Program-made: the position numbers and the translations under genes
The notes under the pieces: generated by a model
What the model saw: only the letters and a program-made list of their open reading frames with translations
Database searches by the model: none
Told to the model about the DNA's origin: nothing
Shown: positions 5,801 through 59,875 of the stretch, one piece after another
Position numbering within the stretch: position 1 is the first letter of the stretch
Layout: the number at the start of each line of letters is the position of its first letter
Source: Roseimicrobium sp. ORNL1
GTDB taxonomy: Bacteria > Verrucomicrobiota > Verrucomicrobiia > Verrucomicrobiales > Verrucomicrobiaceae
Length of the DNA stretch: 64,000 nt
Direction: 5' to 3'
NCBI RefSeq assembly: GCF_011044495.1
Contig: NZ_CP049143.1
Span: 4,774,001 to 4,838,000, forward strand

Positions 5801-7762
5801 GCGCGCCAGATCCAGCAGGCTCCACACCACTGCACGACGATCCTCAGACGCGGCTGCATCCTTGTCCTTTTCCTTATCCTTATCCTTGTTGGTTGATAGC
5901 GTGCGCAGAAGATCACGGCGCAGGGCAGTAGCCATCTGGAAATGCCGCAGGCCTTGATCCAGCGAAGCCGCATCCGCGCCATCATGACTGTAGCCGCGGC
6001 CCAGCACCGTGTGGAACTGCGCCATGTCCCTCGCCGCCGCCGCAGTGAAACTCTCCGGATGCAGAGCCGCTTTTTTCTCCAAATCCTGAAGGACACTCGT
6101 GATGCGCTGGTTTGCCTCCTCACTCCGACCCAGCTTCTGCAGCAGTCCGGCCATGGCCACCAGGGTACGCACACGCGCCGGCTGCCCCGCCTCCTGCTGG
6201 CGTCCTTGCAGTTCGAGCAGTTCCTCGTAGCAAGTCAGTGCGAGCTGCGGCTTCTCCGCCACATCCATGTAGAACCGGCAGACATCCTGCAGCAGTGATT
6301 CCCTTTCCTGCAGGAGCATCGTGACTGGTTCCGACTCCAACGCCACCGCCTGCGGGGCCTGCTTGCGATGCCACTCCAGCAGCTCCGCGTACAGGGGCTC
6401 GGCGCGGTCCGCATGCTTCTTCGTAGCGAGCAATCCAGCAAGACGCTCCTGCGCGTGGCGGCAGCCCGGGTCACTCAGCGTGCCCACTTTCTTCCATATC
6501 CTCCACGACTCCTCCGTGTGCGTGAGGTGCTCACCCGCCTTGTCGAGCTGGTAGCCCGTGAGCCTTGCGAGTCCGTCGCGGATTTCCGCCTGACGTTTGT
6601 TCACGCCGGGCTGCCTCAGCTCCACTTCGAGCGCCACGCGGTAGTGTTCCTCCGCTTCCTTCGGTTGATTGAGGTGCAGGCTCAGCAAATCCGCCAGCGC
6701 GAGATGCTGGGCGGAGAGACGCCCATCCATCACACCATGTTTGATGATGATATCCAGTATCGCACGCCTCGTGATGGCAGCCTCCTCGTAGTCCTTGATG
6801 CGGATGCTTTCATCGTGCTCCGCCCACAGGTCCATGGGCACGAGCACGCGCAGGTCCTCTGGTCCGGCGGCATCGTGCACCATCATGAGGAGCGTCTTGA
6901 GGAACTGTTCCTTCAGCGTGAAGTCTGCCGGGCTGCCGGAGAAATCACACAGGGACGCCAGCGCACGACACTGCTCCCACTGGTGATCGAGATCATTCTT
7001 TCTCTCCAGGCTGGCGTGCACTGCCTGGAGCAGGTGTGCCGTCGCCTTCGGGAACTGCTGCCGGTTCATCTCCAGCCAGGCGAGTTTCCCGTGAATCTCC
7101 GCCACCCAGTGCGCATCCACCTCCGGTCGGTTCTTCAGAATCTTCAACGCGCGCTCCAGAAGCTCACCGCCAGACTCCAGCTCACGCGAGGTGATGTTGG
7201 CACTCGCCATGCGCGCGCTCGCCAGCGCGGAGAGGGCCGCCACCTCCACCTGCCACTCACCGGAAGCTTCCGCATCACGCAGCGCCTCCTCCGCCCGCGC
7301 CATGGCCGCGCCCACCTTGCCCCCGCCCAGGAGGTCATGCACCTCCTCCACCAGCGCCCAACCGGGCAGCACGGGCAGTGGCGGCTGCTCCTCAGGCTCC
7401 GAAATGGGAAGCAATTGCTGCTCTCTCGGCAGCGGCGGCGACTCCTGCGGAAGCGGGAGATACAGCGGAGGTGGAGTTGGCGATGGTGAAGCTGGCGGCG
7501 CAACAGGTTTGGGCTGGTGCTGCGGCTGCTGCTTCTCTTTTGGCGGCGCCGGTGACCCTGCCACTCCCGGTCCTGGCACTGGCTTCGTCGCCGACTCCTT
7601 CGCCTCAGGTGTAGTGGCAGGCGGCGGTGGTGTTGGCGTTGCTGCTGGCTGCGGGACCTCCGTCGGCACCTTCAGCAGCAGCGGCGTGTCCTCGTCCACT
7701 GCCGCGCCACGTGCCGTGTTTATCAGTAAGCCCAGCAACAACGCTGACGCCGCGAGTCTCAT
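2834..7762 (-). CDS. Very large secreted TPR protein with C-terminal degenerate CHAT domain
   Basis: About 1642 residues. The chosen ATG at 7762 begins a clean signal peptide (MRLAASALLLGLLINTARGA); an upstream in-frame ATG at 7894 would bury it. A Pro-rich linker covers roughly residues 30-140. Then come more than a thousand residues of helical TPR-like repeats, for example A..HYR.AL..A blocks. The last ~300 residues look like a CHAT caspase-like domain: DGIFTASEV, LDLRKTALAAVPACVS (~1527), GEENLLALERAF and LLSLWPVEDKA match the family pattern. The usual catalytic His motif (ATHG) is replaced near residue 1424 by FDAPLFF, so peptidase activity is doubtful. CHAT proteins often partner with TPRs in proteolytic signalling or defence. 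No effector is visible next door. Function is unknown. Confidence 0.8.
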   Translation of the reverse strand: MRLAASALLLGLLINTARGAAVDEDTPLLLKVPTEVPQPAATPTPPPPATTPEAKESATKPVPGPGVAGSPAPPKEKQQPQHQPKPVAPPASPSPTPPPLYLPLPQESPPLPREQQLLPISEPEEQPPLPVLPGWALVEEVHDLLGGGKVGAAMARAEEALRDAEASGEWQVEVAALSALASARMASANITSRELESGGELLERALKILKNRPEVDAHWVAEIHGKLAWLEMNRQQFPKATAHLLQAVHASLERKNDLDHQWEQCRALASLCDFSGSPADFTLKEQFLKTLLMMVHDAAGPEDLRVLVPMDLWAEHDESIRIKDYEEAAITRRAILDIIIKHGVMDGRLSAQHLALADLLSLHLNQPKEAEEHYRVALEVELRQPGVNKRQAEIRDGLARLTGYQLDKAGEHLTHTEESWRIWKKVGTLSDPGCRHAQERLAGLLATKKHADRAEPLYAELLEWHRKQAPQAVALESEPVTMLLQERESLLQDVCRFYMDVAEKPQLALTCYEELLELQGRQQEAGQPARVRTLVAMAGLLQKLGRSEEANQRITSVLQDLEKKAALHPESFTAAAARDMAQFHTVLGRGYSHDGADAASLDQGLRHFQMATALRRDLLRTLSTNKDKDKEKDKDAAASEDRRAVVWSLLDLARAHEQRGDVATAEEHYRRALAFAGSKATNPGWVEAAQALATFLAGERRHTEAVAVLRKILEGKPLPEGEAVEARQQRRVILQELYRELDRAGDDEGALVVLSQMDRNSWYTPWQVEEEEFVAIREARIKWRQRHLAAAWAQMQDVLMKRRERQDEAGLLQLLEEMIPLALLQKDKITTEQFMAERVALLRKQEAGAGPLQATLLEHAGLWLFSGDSQRALEAIQGSQALGPVGQAATTPQTRAILASGALLEMFTLAQRKEMTGAKAACERLAQYTTGTPHEAMVKKFLEELPTTSEAMEPFQNVALLTVLHDRGVAGRRLLECAVSLCEEKYGSTSAAAILLREQLGSLCLRLGEHGAAIAHYEIAWASLKDSAAMAVQGRKGVVLQTLISLRARSGDWPAAEKHAREMLDLMTAVAGAQVVGTAQLHFQLAECAGRRGDREVAGTRMLEALRVQEQGIADVMHSGTEQEVMRLDAQRRQAFDLVAAYGSAEAIAGALVRQKGVLLDSLLQDSQMTPASKDMSAQPLLGRVEVARSALNTAARNAGAITLETPYAEARTILKELDKRREDMADAESAFMTLLGGTNWKRRALMTSLDDVREGMPEGAVLLDYYRHREPGGLEYFSVSVLPKKGVARQVRLGEAGLIEELIRLYHQVIQHHTNEATAAQVLSVLGQMLVGQALTNFAEPPQTIIFCPDDALRTVSFPTLLLEPDGRFLGELMSLRQVSAARDLALLPPAGTPATPIESRNQVEAAMGSLEKKLRDEAKTAAVLSFDAPLFFLPTVDASQGPGSLGSERGGTPAWRAGLLLDHKGADTLTAWKEALRVGISEGGGSGPEAISSAGAGADVEDGIFTASEVATLDLRKTALAAVPACVSRVDVLRPSSGEENLLALERAFSVSGAHQVLLSLWPVEDKAVAAEFMSDLQKKLQDAGLAGQGTEVNADVAALFQDVQREWLVRLRTNANGGLIKAVSTAGPFVLMQGVRARK

Positions 7763-20522: not shown

Positions 20523-20718
20523 GAAAGTGTGCACCGTGACAGGTGACTGCCTGATGTTCGCGAGTCGAACGGCAGTTGGATGGACAACTGTTGTTCCACA
20601 TGTTGGACACATAATTGCTTAATGCCGAAAGCGTCGTTTGCCGGAAGCGCACAGCACGTGCACTGTCCTGCTCGATACCATCCCCCAATCAATTCCGGAC
20701 AAATCCGGACAATTCCTC

Positions 20719-21492
20719 ATGTGCTTCCCTGCCCGCCCGCGCCTTTTCTTGTACGTCTCAATGATTCTTTCGGTGCTCAGTGCGCATGCACCGCTTGCTG
20801 CCAATAGCGCCCCCACCCACAAAGTCTACATCTCGTCTGAGGAGCTTGCCGTAACCGTGGGCGCCGATGCAGCCACGGTTGAGGGACAATTCCAATTCAA
20901 ATCAGCCAGGGGCAGCGGTGCAAAATCGAGCACATTTGTAGCCATTCCAGTCTGGATACCGTTCAAGGCCGCACAAGGAAACACCAGCCTGGTTTCCATG
21001 GTAAAGGTGCAGGACAACAACAGCTTCCACAAACTTGAAGGTCCCTTGCTCAAGGCGTGGGATGAAACCATCGGACTGAAGTTCACCGTGGGGAATCAGG
21101 AGGTACCCGTCGGCATGCTGAGGATTGTCCGCCCCTGGTCGTTCACCAAAAGCGAAGGCACTCCCAAGGCGTGGCTGCATGATGGTTGGATACTTGCCCT
21201 CGCGATGATCTATTGCCCTCCGCCCCTGATGCAAGGCTCCTCTGAAGCGCGCCTCCGCTATCGCCAACCCTTACGCAAAACGAGAGGTGGCGCGGAATTT
21301 TTATACCTCCCCCAGTTTTATTATCAGCCAGAGGGCACAACAACGACGGATTTGGAAAAATTCGCCATGAAGGTGCAGGCTCAGCAGGGACTCTCTCTCT
21401 CCATAGGTGGAGCCCTCCTTCCCGCGGGGCAATCCGCAACCCTACCCCTGATTCATCATCAGGCCATCAAGGTGCTGGTCACTGCACCTTGA
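20719..21492 (+). CDS. Secreted protein of a four-member tandem family, copy 1
   Basis: 257 residues. The chosen ATG 20719 gives MCFPARPRLFLYVSMILSVL, a signal peptide ending near HAPLAANSAP. The mature part begins HKVYISSEELAVTVGADAA, a pattern shared by all four copies. Other shared blocks are IPVWIP.KA.QG (~75), HKLEGPLLKAW.ETIGLKF (~110), HDGWILALAMIYCPPPLMQG (~165), LRYRQPLRKT.GGAEFLYLP (~190) and a C-terminal IKVLVTAP. No catalytic motif or known domain is recognised; the composition suggests a beta-rich fold. It is the most diverged of copies 1-3. Export to the periplasm or beyond is likely. Confidence 0.85.
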   Translation: MCFPARPRLFLYVSMILSVLSAHAPLAANSAPTHKVYISSEELAVTVGADAATVEGQFQFKSARGSGAKSSTFVAIPVWIPFKAAQGNTSLVSMVKVQDNNSFHKLEGPLLKAWDETIGLKFTVGNQEVPVGMLRIVRPWSFTKSEGTPKAWLHDGWILALAMIYCPPPLMQGSSEARLRYRQPLRKTRGGAEFLYLPQFYYQPEGTTTTDLEKFAMKVQAQQGLSLSIGGALLPAGQSATLPLIHHQAIKVLVTAP

Positions 21493-21520
21493 CCTCCCCC
21501 GGCACCAAATAGTGAGTCAC

Positions 21521-21540
21521 GCATCATAAAAGATGCGCAT
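21521..21540 (+). promoter_or_regulatory. Shared upstream element (copy 1 of 3)
   Basis: The block gcatcataaaagatgcgcat lies about 100 bp before the second paralogue. Related blocks are at 23272-23291 and 24145-24164. It contains a small palindrome, gcatc...gatgc, around an aaaa core. It could be an operator or simply duplicated spacer. Confidence 0.45.
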
Positions 21541-21642
21541 GGCGCGTCTTGGCTTCCACCCAAAGCAAGATGCAGGAGGCATCGATTGCGTGGATCGCGT
21601 CCCTCATGCATCATGGCGCGCAACCTCCCCCGGTTGTTCGAT

Positions 21643-22425
21643 ATGCATTTGGTCACTCGCCCCTCTCTTCTCTTGTCCGCTTTGATGGTCCTGTCGGCAG
21701 TACTTGGTGGCCACACACCGCTTGCCGCCAATATCGCCCCTACCCACAGGGTCTACATCTCGTCTGAAGAACTTGAGGTAACCGTAGGCGCCGATGCAGC
21801 CACGATTGACGGAAAATTCCGATTCAAACCGGTCGAGGGCGATCTGCATGAAAGTTCGAGTGCAGGAGCAGGCATTCCAGTCTGGATACCAGCCAAGGCC
21901 ACTCAAGGAGACGCCGGCTTGGTATCCTTGGTAAAGGACCTGGCTCCCGGCGACATGCACAAACTTGAAGGTCCCCTACTTAAGGCGTGGAATGAAACCA
22001 TCGGATTAAAGTTCATCGTAGGGAAACAGGAAGTTCCCGTGAGCGTGCTGAGAATTTTCCATCCCACGTCGCGTTTCGAAAGGAAGGACACATCCAAGGA
22101 GTGGTACCAGCATGAGGGGTGGATTCTCGCCTTCGCGATAGTCTATTGCCCTCCGCCCCTGATGCATGGCTCCTCTGAAGTGCGCCTCCGCTATCGCCAA
22201 CCTCTGCGTAAAACGAGGGCTGGCGCGGAATTTCTCTATCTCCCCCAGTTCTTTCACCAACCAAAGGGTGCCACGACGAAGGACTTGGATAGGTTCGCCA
22301 TGAAGTTGCAGGCACAGCAGGGCGTCTCTCTCTCGATGGGTGGAGTCGTCATTCCCGCTGGGCATTCCGCACGACTTCCTCTCATCGATCATCAGCCCAT
22401 CAAGGTTTTGGTCACCACACCTTGA
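21643..22425 (+). CDS. Secreted protein of the tandem family, copy 2
   Basis: 260 residues from ATG 21643 (MHLVTRPSLLLSALMVLSAV), which makes its length match the other copies. An in-frame ATG at 21613 would add ten residues, and the equivalent longer form is also possible for copy 3. The signal peptide ends near TPLAAN. The protein carries all family blocks (VYISSEELEVTVGADAA; HKLEGPLLKAWNETIGLKF; LRYRQPLRKTRAGAEFLYLP; AGHSARLPLIDHQPIKVLVT). Its last ~285 bp are almost identical in DNA to copy 3. It sits 217 bp (stop to start) after copy 1, and copy 3 begins within 40 bp of its stop, so these are likely co-transcribed. Confidence 0.87.
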   Translation: MHLVTRPSLLLSALMVLSAVLGGHTPLAANIAPTHRVYISSEELEVTVGADAATIDGKFRFKPVEGDLHESSSAGAGIPVWIPAKATQGDAGLVSLVKDLAPGDMHKLEGPLLKAWNETIGLKFIVGKQEVPVSVLRIFHPTSRFERKDTSKEWYQHEGWILAFAIVYCPPPLMHGSSEVRLRYRQPLRKTRAGAEFLYLPQFFHQPKGATTKDLDRFAMKLQAQQGVSLSMGGVVIPAGHSARLPLIDHQPIKVLVTTP

Positions 22426-22464
22426 CCTCGCCCCATGGCACGCTTCCAACCCCGGTTGTTCGAT

Positions 22465-23244
22465 ATGCATTCGGTCACTCGCCCCTCTCTTCTCTTGTCC
22501 GCAATGATGGTCCTGTCGGCAGTATTTGGCGGCCACACGCCGCTTGCTGCCAATATCGCCCCTACCCACAAAGTCTACATCTCATCTGAAGAACTCGCGG
22601 TAACCGTAGGAGCCGATGCGGCCACGATTGACGGACAATTCCGATTCAAACCAGCCGAGAACGACCTGCACGAAAGGTCGAGGGCAGGGGCAATTATTCC
22701 AGTCTGGATACCAGTCAAGGCCACACGAGGAGACACCAGCCTGGCATCCTTATTAAAAGTGCAGGACGACTACAGCATCCACAAACTAGAAGGTCCCTTA
22801 CTTGATGCGTGGCAGGAAACCATCGGACTGAAGTTCATCGTGGGGAATCGGGAAGTCCCTGTGAACTGGCTGAGGATTATCCGTCCCACGACGCGCGCCG
22901 AAAGGAAAGACACTCCCAAGGAGTGGCAGCATGAAGGCTGGTTTCTTGTCCTCGCGACGATCTATTGCCCTCCGCCCCTGATGCATGGCTCCTGTGAAGT
23001 GCGCCTCCGCTATCGCCAGCCTTTGCGCAAAACGAGGGCTGGTGCGGAGTTTCTCTATCTCCCCCAGTTCTTTCACCAACCAAAGGGTGCCACGACGAAG
23101 GACTTGGATAGGTTCGCCATGAAGTTGCAGGCACAGCAGGGCGTCTCTCTTTCGATGGGTGGAGTCGTCGTTCCTGCTGGGCATTCCGCACGACTTCCTC
23201 TCATCGATCATCAGCCCATCAAGGTCCTGGTCACCACACCTTGA
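22465..23244 (+). CDS. Secreted protein of the tandem family, copy 3
   Basis: 259 residues from ATG 22465 (MHSVTRPSLLLSAMMVLSAV); the alternative ATG 22435 lies ten codons upstream. The signal peptide ends near TPLAAN. Family blocks are intact: VYISSEELAVTVGADAATID, HKLEGPLLDAWQETIGLKF, HEGWFLVLATIYCPPPLMHG and LRYRQPLRKTRAGAEFLYLP. Both the 5' ~180 bp and the 3' ~285 bp resemble copy 2 far more than does the middle third, so divergence is uneven. No function is assigned. Confidence 0.87.
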   Translation: MHSVTRPSLLLSAMMVLSAVFGGHTPLAANIAPTHKVYISSEELAVTVGADAATIDGQFRFKPAENDLHERSRAGAIIPVWIPVKATRGDTSLASLLKVQDDYSIHKLEGPLLDAWQETIGLKFIVGNREVPVNWLRIIRPTTRAERKDTPKEWQHEGWFLVLATIYCPPPLMHGSCEVRLRYRQPLRKTRAGAEFLYLPQFFHQPKGATTKDLDRFAMKLQAQQGVSLSMGGVVVPAGHSARLPLIDHQPIKVLVTTP

Positions 23245-23271
23245 CCTCGGCTACCGTAGTTCCCACTTTGC

Positions 23272-23291
23272 TCATCACAAAAGGTACGCAC
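23272..23291 (+). promoter_or_regulatory. Shared upstream element (copy 2 of 3)
   Basis: The block tcatcacaaaaggtacgcac lies 43 bp before copy 4. It resembles 21521-21540 and 24145-24164. The region from here to the ATG also resembles the region before the 24220 gene, ending in cactgaatgtcc in both. Confidence 0.45.
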
Positions 23292-23333
23292 GACTACAGC
23301 ATCTCGTCTACTCACCCAAAATTCGCGCACTGA

Positions 23334-24113
23334 ATGTCCTCCCGCTCACATCTTCTCGTGTGTGCCTCGATGCTGCTGTCAGCACTGAGTGCGCATACAC
23401 CTCTCTCCGCCAATCCCATCGCCATCACTCACGCTGTCTATATTGCTTCTGAAGCGTTGACCGTCGAAGTGGGGGCTGAGGCGGCGTATATTGATGGAAG
23501 TTTTCGATTCAAGTCGGCCCTAAAAAAGGGGGACTTTGGAGAGGATTCGGATATCAGGATCACGATTCCTGTTTGGATTCCTGCGAAAGCTCCTCAGGGG
23601 GATACCACAGTGAGGAGTTTGCTCGAAGTCATCGAACTTGGAGAATCCAACAAGATAGAAGGTCCCCTCGCCTCTGCGTGGGAGAGTGCTGTCGGCTTGA
23701 AGTTCACCGTTGCAGGTCGTTCGATACCCATCGAAGTCCTGAGGATCACTGATCCCATGGCGCGGAAGAATCGCAAATATTCCCCCGCAGCACGGCAGCA
23801 TGAGGGCTGGATCCTCGCCTTTGCTGACGTGTATTTCCCTCCTGCGTTATTGCGTGGCACACCCGAAATCCGAATCCGCTATCGTCAGCCTCTGCGCAAG
23901 ACTAAGGCCGGGGCGGAATTCCTTTATCTCCCGGAGTTCGGCAATCTGCCCAAAGGCGCGACCACGACCGACTTGGAGAAGTATGCCATGAAGTTGCAGA
24001 CTAAGGATGGCGGCACGCTGGCCGCAGGAGGCGTTGTGATTCCCTCAGGGCATTCCGCACGACTTCCTCTGGCCCACCATCAGCCCATCAAGCTCCTGGT
24101 CACCACCCCCTGA
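23334..24113 (+). CDS. Secreted protein of the tandem family, copy 4
   Basis: 259 residues from ATG 23334 (MSSRSHLLVCASMLLSALSA), with a signal peptide ending near TPLSAN. It is the most diverged member by amino acids but keeps the blocks: VYIASEALTVEVGAEAAYID, IPVWIPAKAPQGD, HEGWILAFADVYFPPALLRG, IRYRQPLRKTKAGAEFLYLP and GHSARLPLAHHQPIKLLVTT. The cysteine of the YCPPPL block is replaced by Phe, which argues against that Cys being catalytic. It is followed within ~106 bp by the haem protein gene at 24220, with which it shares upstream sequence. Confidence 0.87.
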   Translation: MSSRSHLLVCASMLLSALSAHTPLSANPIAITHAVYIASEALTVEVGAEAAYIDGSFRFKSALKKGDFGEDSDIRITIPVWIPAKAPQGDTTVRSLLEVIELGESNKIEGPLASAWESAVGLKFTVAGRSIPIEVLRITDPMARKNRKYSPAARQHEGWILAFADVYFPPALLRGTPEIRIRYRQPLRKTKAGAEFLYLPEFGNLPKGATTTDLEKYAMKLQTKDGGTLAAGGVVIPSGHSARLPLAHHQPIKLLVTTP

Positions 24114-53373: not shown

Positions 53374-53604
53374 ATGACAACGACGACGGAGGAAAAGACA
53401 GGACCGAGGGAACTGCTGACGACAGCACAGGCACGGGCGCGGCTTGGGTTCAGTGAGCAACAGCTCGCCAGACTGCGGACAGCGCGCCGCATCAGCTACT
53501 TCAAACGAGGAGGGCGCATCCTGTATGCGCCTGAGGAGGTGGAGCGGGTGCTGCGTGAGTCTGAAGTGCCCGCACTCAGACCGGTGGTGGATGTGAAGGC
53601 TTGA
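53374..53604 (+). CDS. Small helix-turn-helix (excisionase/MerR-type) protein
   Basis: 76 residues from ATG 53374. After a short Thr/Glu-rich N-terminus comes a HTH_17-like motif: LLTTAQARARLGFSEQQLAR (~15-34), then RISYFKRGGRILYAPEEVER, the typical wing and following helix of MerR/excisionase-like DNA-binding proteins. It is the first gene of the replication module and may regulate it or act as an excision or origin factor. An AT-rich stretch (53655-53690) follows before the primase gene. No integrase is seen. Confidence 0.85.
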   Translation: MTTTTEEKTGPRELLTTAQARARLGFSEQQLARLRTARRISYFKRGGRILYAPEEVERVLRESEVPALRPVVDVKA

Positions 53605-55032: not shown

Positions 55033-55345
55033 TGTCGTGCTCATCACCAGAAAATGGAAGCCGCGCGAATGATCCAAGCGCTGTGACGCGCAGCGTCCCT
55101 GGACTGCGGCAGCCTGCTGCCGCTTTCCAGAGTCCACAGCCTGCTGTGGCGATGATGACCCTCACTCGTGATGTGACCTCTCTAGAAGAGCTTGGCGACT
55201 TCGTCGCGGTGGAGTGTGCAGCAGGCTGCACTTCAGGAAAGCGGCAGCAGGCTGCACGCAGTCCAGGGACGCTGCGCGTCACAGCTTCCACATCAAGAAC
55301 CTCACGTTCACGCGCTACTCCCCGCCCATACCATTTTTCTTACCC
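55033..55345. repeat. Intergenic region with a ~48-bp inverted repeat
   Basis: Arms at 55079-55127 (gctgtgacgcgcagcgtccc...) and 55238-55286 (...gggacgctgcgcgtcacagc) are inverted, with small internal palindromes (gcagcctgctgc). They lie in the middle of the replication module, between primase and helicase genes. They could be an origin-like structure or another dispersed repeat. Confidence 0.65.
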
Positions 55346-56923
55346 ATGACGACACCTCCGACACCACCGCCTCCGCCTCCGCCCGACCCCAACAATTCCC
55401 GCGACCTGCGCAACACGCGCTCCTATCGCCGTGGGAAAGAAAACGAGCGCCGCACCCACCAGGCGCAGCTCACCCTCGCCGAACCGGTGAGCGTACAAGT
55501 GACTGAGGAGGATGACGGAGCCGTGACCGTGCTCGCCGTGACTCCCGTAGATGGCATCTACAACGACAATCGCAATGCCCTGGAGTTCCTCAGCCGCCAT
55601 CATGCAGACGTGCGCTACTGCTGGTGCCGGAAGCAGTGGGTCGAGTGGAACGGCGCCTCTTGGGAACTGGACCCCGGTGCGGGCATGCAGGAGCGGGCGA
55701 AGTATTTCTCCGAGGAAATCCTCCGACAATCCGCCGAGTGCAGCTACCCCGCCGAGGGCAATGAACTCATGAAGCGCGGTCGCGACCTGGGAAACCTCGC
55801 GGACATGAGGGCCATGCTGGTCGCCGCCAGCTCCGACTCCCGCGTGAGCCTTCGCACCATGGACATGTGGGATGCCGACCCCTTCCTGCTCGGCGTGGAG
55901 AATGGCGTGCTGGACCTGCGGAAATGCGAGTTCCACCCGCCGCAGCGCGACCTCATGATGACCAAGTCTGCCCGCGTCACCTATGACGCCGCCGCCGCCT
56001 GTCCGAAGTGGGAGGCCTTTGTGGAGCAGATATTGCCCGACCCGCAGGTGCGGCACTTCATGCAGGTGAGCGCGGGCTACTGGCTCACGGGGGACACCGG
56101 CGCGCAGTGCTTCTGGTTCCTCTACGGCACCGGGTCGAATGGCAAGACCACCTTCCTGGAAACGCTCTTCCATCTCTGCGGCGGCTACGGCCAGAAGGCC
56201 GGCGGCATGCTCGCGGACAAGCCCACGGATAACAACGTGCTCGGCGAACTCGCAGGCCTGACCGGCGCCCGCCTCCTCGTGGGCTCCGAAGTCTCCGACG
56301 GCATGCGGCTCAATGAATCCCTCGTGAAAGACATCACGGGCGGAGAGAGCATCAAAGCCCGCTTCCTCTACAAGCCCTTCTTCGTGTTCCGCCCGAGCTG
56401 CAAGCTGGTCATGTTCGGCAATCACCGCCCCACCATCTCCGGCACGGATGGCGGCATGTGGCGCCGCGTCCGCCTCGTCCCCTTCACCACCGTGGTGCCA
56501 GCAGAACAGCGCAATGAAAACCTGCCGAAGGAACTGCTGACGGAGCTGCCGGGTATCTTGAACTGGTGCCTTCGCGGCCTGGCGGCATGGCACGCGAATG
56601 GCTGCAAGCTGCCCATGCCGGATGCGGTGAAGAACGCGACGGAAGGGTACCGGGAGGACTCGGATGTGTTGGGGGAGTTTATCCAGGAGACGACGGAGCA
56701 GACGCAGGACCTCGACCGCAAAGTGCTGCTGAGCGACCTGTACGAGAAATACAAAACATGGGCCACCGACAGCGGTAGGCGCACCCAACTCAACAAACAA
56801 TCACTCCGCAAACGACTGGAGGACCGTGGCTATGTGGTGAAGCACACCAACAAGGGCAAGGCCATCTGCGGGCTTTGCATGCGCAGTGAAGCGGACCCTT
56901 TTACTCAAGACCAATTCGAATGA
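55346..56923 (+). CDS. P4/D5-type phage or plasmid primase-helicase
   Basis: 525 residues from ATG 55346 (MTTPPTPPPPPPPDPNNSRD, a Pro-rich N-terminus). The D5_N domain is at ~70-230 (WVEWNGASWELDPGAG; LGVENGVLDLRKCEFHPP). An SF3-type ATPase core follows: Walker A YGTGSNGKTTFLETL (~258-272), Walker B region ARLLVGSEVSDGMRLNE (~311, acidic), sensor FGNHRPTISGTDGGMWRRVR (~355-375, with the Asn and Arg finger). The C-terminal DUF3987/winged-helix-like part includes EGYREDSDVLGEFIQE. Such enzymes unwind replication origins of P4-like satellites and plasmids. It is probably the replicative helicase of an integrated element. Confidence 0.93.
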   Translation: MTTPPTPPPPPPPDPNNSRDLRNTRSYRRGKENERRTHQAQLTLAEPVSVQVTEEDDGAVTVLAVTPVDGIYNDNRNALEFLSRHHADVRYCWCRKQWVEWNGASWELDPGAGMQERAKYFSEEILRQSAECSYPAEGNELMKRGRDLGNLADMRAMLVAASSDSRVSLRTMDMWDADPFLLGVENGVLDLRKCEFHPPQRDLMMTKSARVTYDAAAACPKWEAFVEQILPDPQVRHFMQVSAGYWLTGDTGAQCFWFLYGTGSNGKTTFLETLFHLCGGYGQKAGGMLADKPTDNNVLGELAGLTGARLLVGSEVSDGMRLNESLVKDITGGESIKARFLYKPFFVFRPSCKLVMFGNHRPTISGTDGGMWRRVRLVPFTTVVPAEQRNENLPKELLTELPGILNWCLRGLAAWHANGCKLPMPDAVKNATEGYREDSDVLGEFIQETTEQTQDLDRKVLLSDLYEKYKTWATDSGRRTQLNKQSLRKRLEDRGYVVKHTNKGKAICGLCMRSEADPFTQDQFE

Positions 56924-57061: not shown

Positions 57062-57268
57062 CTATCCGGCGCGCTCCGGCGCAGGATACTCCTGAATCAA
57101 CTCCAACTCGTCCCCCGTGCGCCGGATGGCCAGCACGGACAGCTCGGGGTATCGCGCTTTTACCTCGTCGCCCGCCAAAAACTCAAACCACCCCTCCCGG
57201 AGACGCCAATTGTCTGCGTCTACGTAGCCAAACATGCCCACAGTGAGGTCAACCCGGTATTGATGCAT
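57062..57268 (-). CDS. Small strand-rich protein, family member 1
   Basis: 68 residues from ATG 57268 (MHQYRVDLTVGMFGYVDADN); upstream in-frame ATGs are less likely. The pattern YRVDLTVGMFGYVDADN, then WFEFLAGDEVKARYPELSVL and AIRRTGDELELI is similar to the proteins at 58031 and 58291 (VFRLELTHLGTVHVEAD and VFKVVLVSIGPAHVEAD). It is probably a compact beta-fold of ~65 residues. It lies on the opposite strand to the helicase module. Function unknown. Confidence 0.65.
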   Translation of the reverse strand: MHQYRVDLTVGMFGYVDADNWRLREGWFEFLAGDEVKARYPELSVLAIRRTGDELELIQEYPAPERAG

Positions 57269-57613
57269 TCCCTCCTGTAACTGGATCTTTGGTGAAGTTT
57301 TGTCAATGTGCGTCCCATCAGAATCTCGGAGCGAATTGATAAGTCTTTCCTGTAATCGCGCATGCCGCAATGGAGTCTCATGGGAGTCTCACCGGAATGG
57401 TGGGCATTCTCGCAACACGGTTCATCGAACACACACGCGTGCACTCTGCATGAAGTGGAGGAGCGGGAATTTTGCATCAGCAACTCGGAGCAAATATCGC
57501 TTGCCGCTCTATCTCCAAAATGCCAAAACACCTGAGACATGGCTGGCTTTTCTCGCCAACTCCCCGACCCGTCTGCATTCAGCAATGCGAACGAAACTAC
57601 GCCACCCGGGACC

Positions 57614-57916
57614 ATGGGGGAACCTGTTGCCGCTCAGACGCCACGGTCGCCTGCGAAGTTTATCCTGACCTATAGCGAAGGGGCTGCATTTGAACTGGAA
57701 GGGAGCATTCACTGCCAGGGGCGTGACTGGTTCGTGTTTCACGACACCAAAGGACAGCCGCTCCTGCAGTTTCGACTCTCGGAAATAGAGAGCGTGGAGG
57801 AAGTACACGGTGAAGGACAGAACAGGGACGTCACCGCTGCCCTCCTTGCGTTGTCGGAGGGCCATCCCGAACCGCCTCGTTGGGCTCTCGCTTCCGGGAA
57901 GCGCCGCACTCAATGA
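57614..57916 (+). CDS. Small protein, possible family member
   Basis: 100 residues from ATG 57614 (MGEPVAAQTPRSPAKFILTY); an earlier ATG at 57539 would add 25 residues. After a disordered start it shows FILTYSEGAAFELEGSIHCQ and WFVFHDTKGQPLLQFRLSEI, again a short strand-rich domain with a hydrophobic F..G..L..F pattern. Similarity to the other small proteins is weaker. Function unknown. It is followed 114 bp later by the 58031 gene on the same strand. Confidence 0.55.
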   Translation: MGEPVAAQTPRSPAKFILTYSEGAAFELEGSIHCQGRDWFVFHDTKGQPLLQFRLSEIESVEEVHGEGQNRDVTAALLALSEGHPEPPRWALASGKRRTQ

Positions 57917-58030
57917 CAGCGGGGCGATTGCAGTCTGCATCATCCGTTTTCGTGCAACATGCATCGAATAAAATATCACGATACCTTTGAACGTGCGTGA
58001 GTCCGGGTGCGTATATCTGCGCCCACATTG

Positions 58031-58294
58031 ATGAAAGTATTTCGACTTGAACTCACCCACCTCGGTACTGTCCATGTTGAAGCTGACAGTTGCACCCACG
58101 GAGAAGAATCCGTCTGCTTTTATCGCGCAGGCCGTCTGCTCGCCGAGTACGTTGCCTCCACGGTAAAAAGCGTGGAGGCCACCGGCGCCCAGCCACAGGA
58201 GGGTCTGTACAGCATGTTGTCGTGGATGGAGAATCCACTCTCCGTACCCACGCCTGGACTCTTCAGCAACGCGTACGCACACGAGCGCTCATGA
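58031..58294 (+). CDS. Small strand-rich protein, family member 2
   Basis: 87 residues from ATG 58031 (MKVFRLELTHLGTVHVEADS). The first ~45 residues match the family: HVEAD, then FYRAGRLLAEY (compare FFRGDSVIAEY in member 3). The C-terminal ~35 residues (MLSWMENPLSVPTPGLFSNA) are a unique extension. Its stop codon overlaps the start of the 58291 gene by ATGA, so the two are translated as a pair. Confidence 0.7.
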   Translation: MKVFRLELTHLGTVHVEADSCTHGEESVCFYRAGRLLAEYVASTVKSVEATGAQPQEGLYSMLSWMENPLSVPTPGLFSNAYAHERS

Positions 58295-58488
58295 GGGTGT
58301 TTAAGGTTGTGTTAGTCAGCATCGGCCCCGCGCACGTGGAGGCGGACAGGTATGAGGAGGAAGGCGTCTCGGTGAAGTTTTTCCGCGGGGACTCGGTCAT
58401 CGCCGAATATCCCAAAGTCCTCGTCCAGGAGGTTGCCCTCACGACGCTGTCCGCGTCCCCAGGGGGACTATTGTTCTCTGCGGAGTGA
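58291..58488 (+). CDS. Small strand-rich protein, family member 3
   Basis: 65 residues from ATG 58291 (MRVFKVVLVSIGPAHVEADR). Family blocks are VFKVVLVSIGPAHVEADRYE (1-22) and VKFFRGDSVIAEYPKVLVQE (~27-46). Member 2 and member 3 share about half their residues over this segment, which points to duplication. ATGA overlap with member 2. No known domain. Confidence 0.7.
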   Translation: MRVFKVVLVSIGPAHVEADRYEEEGVSVKFFRGDSVIAEYPKVLVQEVALTTLSASPGGLLFSAE

Positions 58489-58502
58489 CTTGCGGCGGCG
58501 GC

Positions 58503-58546
58503 GAAAAAAGAAACCCCGCCTGTGCGCCGACACGCACAGACGGGGA
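58503..58546 (-). terminator. Rho-independent terminator of the beta-barrel gene
   Basis: On the minus strand the stem ccccgtctgtgcg / cgcacaggcgggg is followed by tttcttttttc. On the plus strand it could also end the small-protein operon, though without a T-run. Confidence 0.85.
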
Positions 58547-58647
58547 AACACGCATGATTTGATTTGAACTAACTAACTCCTTTTTCGCATAGGTACCCAA
58601 GCGACTGAAGGGTTCACGCTGGCGAATCGTGCTCGCCAGGTGAGCGA

Positions 58648-59181
58648 CTACAGCTTGAACTTGAGGCCCACGCGAACAATCGTGAAATCACCGGAGTCAT
58701 CTTCACCCCAGTGATAGGCGCCATCGGCGAAGATGCCGAGGCAGTCAGCGTCCGGAATGCGGGCTTCGAGGCCACCGCCGACGAACAGGTTCCAGTTGTC
58801 TTCCGAATTGGTCGCATAACCAGCACCACCCAAGATGTAGGGAGCGATGCAGAGATCCGTGATGGGGAAGCGCACGACGAGGGCTGCGTCGAACTCATGG
58901 TGTTCGCTGTCGGTGGCGAAGATGCCATAGCTGCCCTGCAGGCCGATGTGCTCCGTGAAAAAGTAGTCGAGGAGTACGCCGCCGCCGAGAGCGTCGTCTT
59001 CGTCACTGTCAGGCAGGATGCCCGCACCGAAGATGCCGAGGGAAAGTCCGGGGTTAAAGCAGTCGCAGCCCCTAGGAGGCGGAGGCGGGGTGACGGTATT
59101 CTTGCTGGACACATAGGCTTCACCACCGAAGGCGGGAAGCGCGAGTCCAAGCGCGAGGAGGAGACTGGATAGGGTCTTCAT
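58648..59181 (-). CDS. Outer-membrane beta-barrel protein
   Basis: 177 residues from ATG 59181, signal peptide MKTLSSLLLALGLALPAFGG. After a Pro-rich linker with two Cys (PPPPPRGCDCFNPG, ~32-45), amphipathic strands follow: LSLGIFGAGIL, GGGVLLDYFFTEHIGLQGSYG, DAALVVRFPITDLCIAPYIL and DFTIVRVGLKFKL at the C-terminus, which ends in a hydrophobic residue as outer-membrane proteins do. It fits the OmpA-like/porin-like small barrel class (8 strands likely). Upstream sequence has a cluster of atgcat motifs at 59322-59367. Confidence 0.85.
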   Translation of the reverse strand: MKTLSSLLLALGLALPAFGGEAYVSSKNTVTPPPPPRGCDCFNPGLSLGIFGAGILPDSDEDDALGGGVLLDYFFTEHIGLQGSYGIFATDSEHHEFDAALVVRFPITDLCIAPYILGGAGYATNSEDNWNLFVGGGLEARIPDADCLGIFADGAYHWGEDDSGDFTIVRVGLKFKL

Positions 59182-59321
59182 ATGAGCTGTGGTTGTTCGT
59201 TGTTTGCAATGCCAAGCGATTGTTTCTAATCGCAACGAGGTCATTTGACTGAAATTGCAGCGCTTGAAAAGCCTGAGTATCAACCCCTAGGGCATATTCA
59301 GGGTACCCGCTGATATACAAT

Positions 59322-59367
59322 CATGCATAAAGCCTCATGCATAATGCATGAAACTGCATTCATGCTC
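59322..59367. promoter_or_regulatory. Cluster of atgcat palindromes
   Basis: tcatgcataa occurs twice (59323-59332 and 59335-59344), followed by atgcatgaa and gcattcatgc. It lies ~140 bp upstream of the beta-barrel gene and ~85 bp before the 59451 gene, so it could be a binding site for a regulator of either. Confidence 0.4.
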
Positions 59368-59450
59368 TGGTTGCGACTCTCTATTCGCGCAGCAATTGTG
59401 CGCCAACCACTTCCAACTCGTTCGCTTCCCCTCCTGACTCACCTCTACCA

Positions 59451-59639
59451 ATGGCAGAAAGGCATGAAATTCTCTCCCCTGACGGCACAAAGCTGAGCGT
59501 GGAGGGCGAGTTGGTAGAAATTGATGGCAAACGGGTCGTTCTTGATGGTCAGGGAAGGCCTTGGTTGCTCATCATGCCAGAGGATGTCGTCGCGCCCGTG
59601 GCCGAGGAACTGCCCGAGCATGGAGAAAAGTCATCTTGA
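59451..59639 (+). CDS. Small acidic protein
   Basis: 62 residues from ATG 59451 (MAERHEILSPDGTKLSVEGE). A short strand-turn-strand pattern, VEGELVEIDGKRVVLDGQG, is followed by RPWLLIMPEDVVAPVAEELP. It resembles the other small proteins of this region only in general style (VEG/VEAD, then hydrophobic pairs). Its 3' third overlaps the convergent 59549 frame. It may bind another protein; function unknown. Confidence 0.6.
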   Translation: MAERHEILSPDGTKLSVEGELVEIDGKRVVLDGQGRPWLLIMPEDVVAPVAEELPEHGEKSS

Positions 59640-59875
59640 TGAGGCAATGAGCACTCGTCCTCAGGCAATTTAAAGAGGTCGTGCCAGGACTCGGGGAATG
59701 CCGCGAGAGATTCCTTGGCCAGAGAGTAGCGGTTGAGATAGTGCCCCCGCTGTTGCAGCCAAAGCAGCGAGCCTTTGTTATCCAGACCCTCATGGAGGGC
59801 GAGAAGGTAGGAGGTGTATCGCACCTTCCAGCGGGCATGATGAAAGGCTCTAATATTCTCGGGGGTGGGGTCCAT
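59549..59875 (-). CDS. Hypothetical protein, convergent overlap with the preceding gene
   Basis: 108 residues from ATG 59875 (MDPTPENIRAFHHARWKVRY). The first ~85 residues look like a helical soluble protein (SYLLALHEGLDNKGSLLWLQ, FPESWHDLFKLPEDECSLPH), with good codon character. The last ~22 (Ser/Ala/Thr/Gly-rich) are antisense to the 59451 gene and may reflect a lost stop. No family recognised. Confidence 0.5.
   Translation of the reverse strand: MDPTPENIRAFHHARWKVRYTSYLLALHEGLDNKGSLLWLQQRGHYLNRYSLAKESLAAFPESWHDLFKLPEDECSLPHQDDFSPCSGSSSATGATTSSGMMSNQGLP

Follow-up and report, generated by a model that had tools for sequence, protein, structure and literature searches.

A 2025 study (PMC12487901) describes small barrels of the SH3/Tudor-like kind as the largest, the fourth largest and the fifth largest structural clusters unique to viruses of bacteria. 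Two phage protein families, PHROG 8591 and PHROG 8496, are weakly matched by some of the bacterial proteins considered here, and neither has an assigned function. PHROG 8591 proteins are about 55-61 amino acids long and were met here in Gordonclarkvirinae podophages of Escherichia coli. In two phage records their gene lies behind a gene for about 80 amino acids and a 411-amino-acid or 'ATP-grasp' gene, near a primase/helicase or DNA polymerase. PHROG 8496 is a profile of 59 positions. Another phage protein, gp29.1 of phage LKA1, was deposited as 'DNA Polymerase-binding protein', and its gene stands directly behind that of the phage DNA polymerase. The bacterial proteins are encoded by a cluster of very small genes in Roseimicrobium sp. 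ORNL1, at positions 57062-59639 of a stretch of 64,000 nucleotides. This whole stretch, called the window below, covers positions 4774001-4838000 of the chromosome, a 7.96-Mb single-contig genome.

Three genes of the cluster, named here by their first positions 57062, 58031 and 58291, encode members of one real protein family, called family A. That they belong together is well supported and far beyond chance. The reading preferred for the family, tentatively and at somewhat less than an even chance, is that its members are diversified stand-alone barrels of phage type which bind other proteins and of which the genome keeps many copies.

An earlier note on this DNA had listed five small open reading frames (ORFs), and all five are present where it placed them, at 57062, 57614, 58031, 58291 and 59451. 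It had also proposed a two-part sequence pattern common to 57062, 58031 and 58291. The kinship of the three is real, but the pattern taken literally is too strict. Its first half has one six-frame match in the window (58300, in the 58291 protein) and its second half has two (58378, again in the 58291 protein, and 57181, in the 57062 protein). Both halves are present only in the 58291 protein, and the 58031 protein has neither. With the 58291 protein as sole query, the chromosome yielded further copies, and a profile of ten members, run against the chromosome, returned those ten and one noise match. Each member was also left out and sought with a profile built from the remaining members, with the database size set to approximately that of the whole genome. 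All ten left-out members of this chromosome were recovered at E values of 1e-23 to 1e-7, the three window genes included.

The 58291 gene (58291-58488, forward strand) encodes 65 amino acids and was recovered by the left-out profile at E 5.4e-16. It overlaps the 58031 gene (58031-58294, forward strand; 87 amino acids, left-out E 1.4e-17) by ATGA, as had been noted, with the TGA stop at 58292-58294 inside the ATGA that starts at 58291. In a tree of the family, the 58031 protein groups with two genes of a sister species and with the gene at 2305466 of its own chromosome (support 95/86). That gene and its neighbour form a pair, 2305231/2305466, in which 2305231 is close to 58291 and 2305466 to 58031. 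The 57062 gene (57062-57268, reverse strand; 68 amino acids) was recovered at E 1e-7 by the left-out profile, and at E 9.5e-22 by the genome profile, which contains the sequence itself. It most likely starts at ATG 57268 rather than at TTG 57370, the start of a 102-amino-acid ORF. AGGAGGGA lies just upstream of this ATG, and the 68-residue product aligns with other members of family A from residue 1. Compared by eye, the sequences that precede 23 genes of the family, 57614 and 59451 have no motif in common.

For wider comparison, an alignment of 28 members was made from 35 matches. Left out were four near-copies of one genus and the matches G026:C159, G001:C15:11957 and G001:C18:71981, where G001 is the sister genome. 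Searches of Pfam with the 28 members and of NCBIfam with the five window proteins gave only sub-threshold noise (Fn3-like, TOBE, DUF6599 and unrelated equivalogs). No known housekeeping domain was matched; such a match would, by the earlier note, have counted against its proposal. Among the papers listed by the literature searches made, none was recognisably on family A. Family A is a genuine, expanded family, without a model in the Pfam and NCBIfam versions used, and of known fold.

The fold was predicted for the 58291 protein, and the result is a small barrel. The AlphaFold2 model, made from an alignment of six sequences, has a mean predicted local distance difference test score (pLDDT) of 81.5 and a predicted template modelling score of 0.64. 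Its core, residues 1-52, has a pLDDT of about 89-94, and the tail of residues 54-65 falls below 50. Strands are formed by residues 2-8, 12-18, 20-24, 27-32, 35-41 and 45-51, with three helical residues at 42-44. Because the strands follow this order and a brief helical turn precedes the last of them, family A is predicted, with good support, to be a small barrel of the SH3/Tudor/Sm-like kind with a disordered tail. Among predicted viral proteins (BFVD), 38 of the 50 matches listed are 50-68 amino acids long and nearly all without known function. Eleven of the 50 superpose on the model at 1.7 Å or less. The template modelling (TM) scores of the matches listed are 0.55-0.77 by the query and up to 0.86 by the target.

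The other two small proteins had been described as looser versions of the same pattern. This holds in part. The 57614 gene (57614-57916, forward strand) encodes a 100-amino-acid protein that is a distant relative of family A by profile comparison, but the 62-amino-acid product of 59451 (59451-59639, forward strand) is linked to family A only by way of 57614. Neither was recovered by any family A profile in the leave-one-out test. With hhalign, 57614 and its one paralogue, a weak match at 3443777 of the chromosome (E 1.1e-5), score 22.7 against family A, where the best of 200 column shuffles reaches 14.4. The 59451 protein belongs to a separate small family with three copies in its own genome and one in the sister genome (paralogue E values 6e-17, 4e-13 and 1e-7). 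This family scores 27.9 against the 57614 pair (best of 200 column shuffles 19.5) and 9.9 against family A, a value equalled by 32 of 200 shuffles, so there is no direct link. A single-sequence model of the 59451 protein (mean pLDDT 74.5) has four strands in an order similar to that of family A and forms a partial barrel. Its fold matches are weak only, and those to Tudor and BirA, at Z below 3, have little meaning. The model would be consistent with a relation to family A and is no proof of one.

Evidence for a phage relation comes from sequence as well as from fold. At E≤0.1, nine of the 28 members match phrog_8496 (best 6.1e-5) and four match phrog_8591 (best 9.2e-4). The 58291 protein itself matches PHROG 8591 and PHROG 8496 at 0.0026 and 0.02. 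Searches by tblastn with single members gave E values of 2 or more, or nothing, against phages, and nothing against plasmids. One of the phage matches, at E 2, led to a 55-residue protein of an E. coli podophage that is a clear member of phrog_8591 (1.7e-26). This protein scores 16.6 bits on the family A profile (E 0.0096, 38,880 targets), and 15.2 bits (E 0.027) after the three closest rows are dropped from the profile. None of 5000 shuffles of it exceeds 9.5 bits. In BLASTP, residues 10-41 of the 58291 protein align with residues 10-41 of the phage protein without gaps, at 38% identity. Relatives of the phage protein at E≤0.01 are present in 91 of 50,697 phage records. One of the phages concerned with this gene, myPSH1131, has a cassette of ATP-grasp gene, small gene and barrel gene annotated three times in a row (L117:2637-6906), which is either a real triplication or an assembly artefact. 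Taken together, family A and the phage barrels of PHROG 8591, perhaps also those of PHROG 8496, likely share an origin, which is unproven. The family A members found are all on chromosomes, one of them in a syntenic region.

Family A is present in ten copies in each of the two genomes of the genus and is sporadic elsewhere. It was found in 11 of 57 close genomes and 5 of 24 genera, the genome under study included. Across the phylum, again with this genome, at least 5 of 387 genomes have it, a lower bound because scoring stopped at 15 candidates for each genome. Among the relatives is one on a contig titled Prosthecobacter sp. (Verrucomicrobiaceae, Verrucomicrobiota). In the tree, copies from both species are intermingled; a single orthologous pair (100/99) and a single two-plus-two group can be made out, and support is weak for 14 of the 25 inner branches. 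Therefore the duplication of the family probably began before the species split.

Some copies hold their place. The copy at 6309895 of the chromosome and its orthologue lie in a stretch of about 18 kb over which the two species align. Another genus, represented by three genomes, has one copy at which most of the 3-kb locus is retained to either side, and a second at which the upstream flank and part of the downstream flank are retained. Other copies stand at variable sites. At 4653-4656 kb of the chromosome, both species have the same pair of flanking genes with different genes between them. Genes for a histidine kinase and two response regulators, on the right-hand side of the window cluster, are also kept by the sister species (77-80% alike as DNA); beyond them the content differs between the species, yet a gene of another small family, B, is close by in both. 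In three contigs of Prosthecobacter type, the DNA that is alike at the family A gene comprises the gene and some 80-120 bp upstream, taken as a sign of movement, with other shared pieces elsewhere on the contigs; for two of the three, this comparison covers only some 340-370 bp downstream.

On the preferred reading, each copy would act as a stand-alone barrel with about 52 structured residues, six strand segments, a helical turn before the last of them and a variable disordered tail. Family A would, with moderate support, be a branch that expanded in a cellular lineage and is a distant relative of small phage proteins. Each copy would most likely be a cytoplasmic modulator that binds protein, with the barrel gripping its partner by an exposed strand or a pocket, and with diverged loops and tail choosing the partner. 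The genome keeps many such genes, some fixed in place and others at variable sites, presumably for a purpose of this kind, and the family would be neither an antitoxin nor dedicated cargo of the P4-type module beside it. That the partner would be a protein rather than a nucleic acid is suggested because the net charge of the core is negative in 19 of 28 members.

Several observations weigh against this reading. The charge is only mildly negative (median -1.5) and eight of the 28 cores are positive, so nucleic-acid binding retains a place among the possible functions. The phage link is weak at the sequence level (E 3e-2 to 6e-5), and two scans of viral contigs gave 14 and 21 pattern matches, none of which was confirmed as a relative. 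Of the 617 fold matches among viral proteins, a single one attains E 0.001, and small barrels are prone to convergence. TOBE, itself a small barrel, appears below threshold in Pfam for single members (0.013 and 0.082). Finally, the copies that are syntenic and evolve slowly could mean one plain housekeeping role.

The main rival holds that the proteins are nucleic-acid binders like Sm and Hfq, whose barrels form rings, or act as small regulators by binding RNA or DNA. Hfq chains lead the Foldseek matches of the 58291 model in the Protein Data Bank (PDB), at E 0.3 and above, probability 0.87-0.99 and TM about 0.5, and a search of solved structures by sequence lists ribosomal proteins of the uL24/L26 kind at E 0.44-0.96. 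No PDB match reaches E≤0.001, however, and the root-mean-square deviation from Hfq is at least 3.1 Å. The model has no N-terminal helix, its first element being the strand at 2-8, and Pfam gives no Hfq or LSM match (E≤10 for three single members, E≤0.1 for the 28). With the mostly negative cores added, this explanation is unlikely, and it is still the best placed of those set against the preferred one.

Slightly less credit, as a distinctly unlikely account, goes to the idea that the genes are anti-phage or counter-defence cargo in the variable region of a P4-like satellite, encoding proteins that act on phages or on defence systems. The cluster does lie beside a replication module, as had been stated. 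A D5/P4-type primase-helicase gene is found at 55214-56923 (forward strand, listed start provisional; PF08706 at 8e-24, TIGR01613 at E 1.6e-77), with the gene of a small HTH_17 protein adjoining the module at 53374-53604 (forward strand; PF12728 at 2.1e-8). The window copies are 1.2-2.4 kb from the helicase, fold and weak homology are phage-like, and copies occur at variable sites with other small genes. The earlier note had expected the family next to P4-type helicases in other genomes, and this did not hold up. By TIGR01613 there are four such helicases in this genome and three in the sister genome, and a single one of the seven, that of the window, has a family A member at a distance of 5 kb or less; the next nearest is 25-30 kb away. 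As for integrases, no PF00589 gene lies within 33 kb of any of the ten copies in this genome (nearest 33.9 kb; serine recombinases and transposases were not searched). Therefore the test of P4 neighbourhood fails in general, and a general tie of family A to P4-type helicases, tried with TIGR01613 in both genomes, was rejected. Integrase distances were computed for this genome only; comparing listed positions in the sister genome puts PF00589 at C7:315203, about 20 kb from the member at C7:335543, the nearest on a shared contig. The cargo explanation is also opposed by the copy in a syntenic region and by the strongly conserved copies in another genus. None of the 28 members matches PADLOC at E≤1. 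This library holds defence-system proteins and does not speak to anti-defence, so an anti-defence function stays within the range of this account.

Next to the module, and overlapping the listed start of the helicase ORF, is a 206-bp palindromic interspersed repeat with matching ends (55080-55285). As RNA it would fold at -154 kcal/mol (z -15). With 40 candidates scored per genome, at least 107 matches are found in this genome and at least 113 in the sister genome (E≤1e-5, counting both strands and part-matches). The repeat has no Rfam match at the gathering score.

The phage-like fold and the weak phage homology keep a phage-derived regulatory role alive. An improbable variant would make family A a captured phage early-gene barrel. 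Its ten diversified, selected copies would mimic the barrels of phages and vie with them for targets such as replication proteins, as decoys or adaptors, with the tails choosing the partner. If true, it would open a first way into a fold of unknown function that ranks among the commonest in phages.

It is more doubtful still that the family is genomic clutter, that is, short-lived small genes without selected function that gather at tolerant sites. The many members, the variable sites and a partial match at 3813953 of the chromosome would fit, as would fast divergence within the genus. There the ratio of nonsynonymous to synonymous differences per site (pN/pS) is 0.40-0.56 among diverged copies, with synonymous sites near saturation, so that these values alone have little meaning. 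Among three genomes of one other genus, however, one copy has a pN/pS of 0.02-0.06 and the second a pN/pS of 0.09-0.13, which is strong purifying selection, and among three Prosthecobacter-type genes the ratio is 0.21-0.41. The values of 0.02-0.13 and 0.21-0.41 are those of protein genes under purifying selection. Syntenic retention, and a core pattern kept over 28 members, also speak against clutter.

The earlier note had suggested antitoxins, and 58031/58291 could be seen as a two-gene type II toxin-antitoxin module or similar pair, given the ATGA overlap, the small size and the recurrence of a neighbouring pair at 2305231/2305466. This is very improbable: the two genes are paralogues within a single barrel family, the five cluster proteins and the scanned neighbours match no toxin family, and the neighbours change between the sites compared. 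With no constant partner gene seen, the antitoxin reading was rejected. Small envelope lipoproteins of the DUF903/YgdR kind are scarcely credible, since members begin at the first strand and Pfam gives no DUF903 match, even with 5cai (titled DUF903) and 3fif (titled YgdR) among the first seven VIA-align matches of the 58291 model (Z 5.1-5.7). The other five of these seven are presumably of the same kind, and none of the 50 VIA-align matches listed is a Tudor entry. Scores against solved structures, by VIA-align and Foldseek alike, may reflect a shared arrangement alone.

The variable sites with family A also gather family B and the 59451 family. Family B consists of tiny proteins with an invariant Trp and a near-invariant His, with relatives in L061-L063, L066, L070 and L071. 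Its window gene, which the earlier note does not mention (59549-59875, reverse strand; conserved part 59672-59875), overlaps the 59451 gene in antisense through its 3' part. There are 16 copies in this genome and 19 in the sister genome, several of them in tandem pairs. The window copy has no Pfam match, and 11 members gave no PHROG match better than 0.05. In this genome, three of ten family B sites lie within 5 kb of a family A gene, which 30 of 200,000 random placements reach, a figure not corrected for a bias of the family B profile, all of whose seeds came from the surroundings of A-type or related genes, which favours co-located copies. In the sister genome, 5 kb or less separates 6 of 19 family B genes and 6 of 10 family A genes from a gene of the other family. 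The neighbourhood is not an operon, because orders and strands vary.

Between the family A genes and 59451 sits a gene for a small outer-membrane beta-barrel protein (58648-59181, reverse strand, with the ORF listed to 59283; PF13505 at 5.6e-8). It occurs at three places in the genome: in the window, at L062:6092-6625 and at L060:1943-2512. At 3826 kb the copy has 97% identity and, like that of the window, stands beside a family A gene, a 59451-type gene and a family B gene, as if a block had been copied. Another repeated small-protein family, starting with MYFET, is found beside family A genes at L063:9964-10359 and L003:795-1145 (both reverse strand); its L063 copy has no Pfam match. Near the Prosthecobacter-type family A genes are two further small-protein families (L046:9358-9738 and 6323-6676, both reverse strand; L046:6815-7294 and L048:2526-2852). 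One appears by eye to be present twice in one contig, and the second is common to two contigs (73% at the DNA level). Elsewhere in the window, at 20638-24113, are four tandem paralogous ORFs of 259-284 amino acids with 53-83% mutual identity.

Even if its function is trivial, family A is a family absent from the Pfam and NCBIfam versions used, and it comes with a first map of small-protein sites in the genus. A ten-copy cellular family, with purifying selection on its relatives and a probable counterpart in phages of E. coli, would also make the fold testable from both sides.

Set against known systems, family A has the barrel fold in common with DUF903/YgdR proteins but no signal peptide or lipobox cysteine by eye in the 28 aligned members. 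With Hfq and Sm proteins it shares a small barrel of similar arrangement; it differs in its mildly negative core and in lacking the N-terminal helix and the family match. It can be likened by description to the SH3/Tudor-like clusters of PMC12487901. The kind of fold is shared by prediction, whereas those clusters are viral and family A is a bacterial paralogous expansion. LKA1 gp29.1 is a viral fold match (TM 0.64, 2.0 Å) whose sequence is not similar to family A (E 2 in a set of 26 proteins). PHROG 8496 is matched by some members, but 19 of the 28 miss E 0.1. PHROG 8591 shares with family A the ungapped stretch of similarity at identical residue numbers, with E values that are marginal or fall short for a safe family match. 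Unlike PHROG 8591, family A is chromosomal and multi-copy. The second-best viral fold match to the 58291 model is a protein of Escherichia phage EP335 (TM 0.75/0.81, 1.2 Å).

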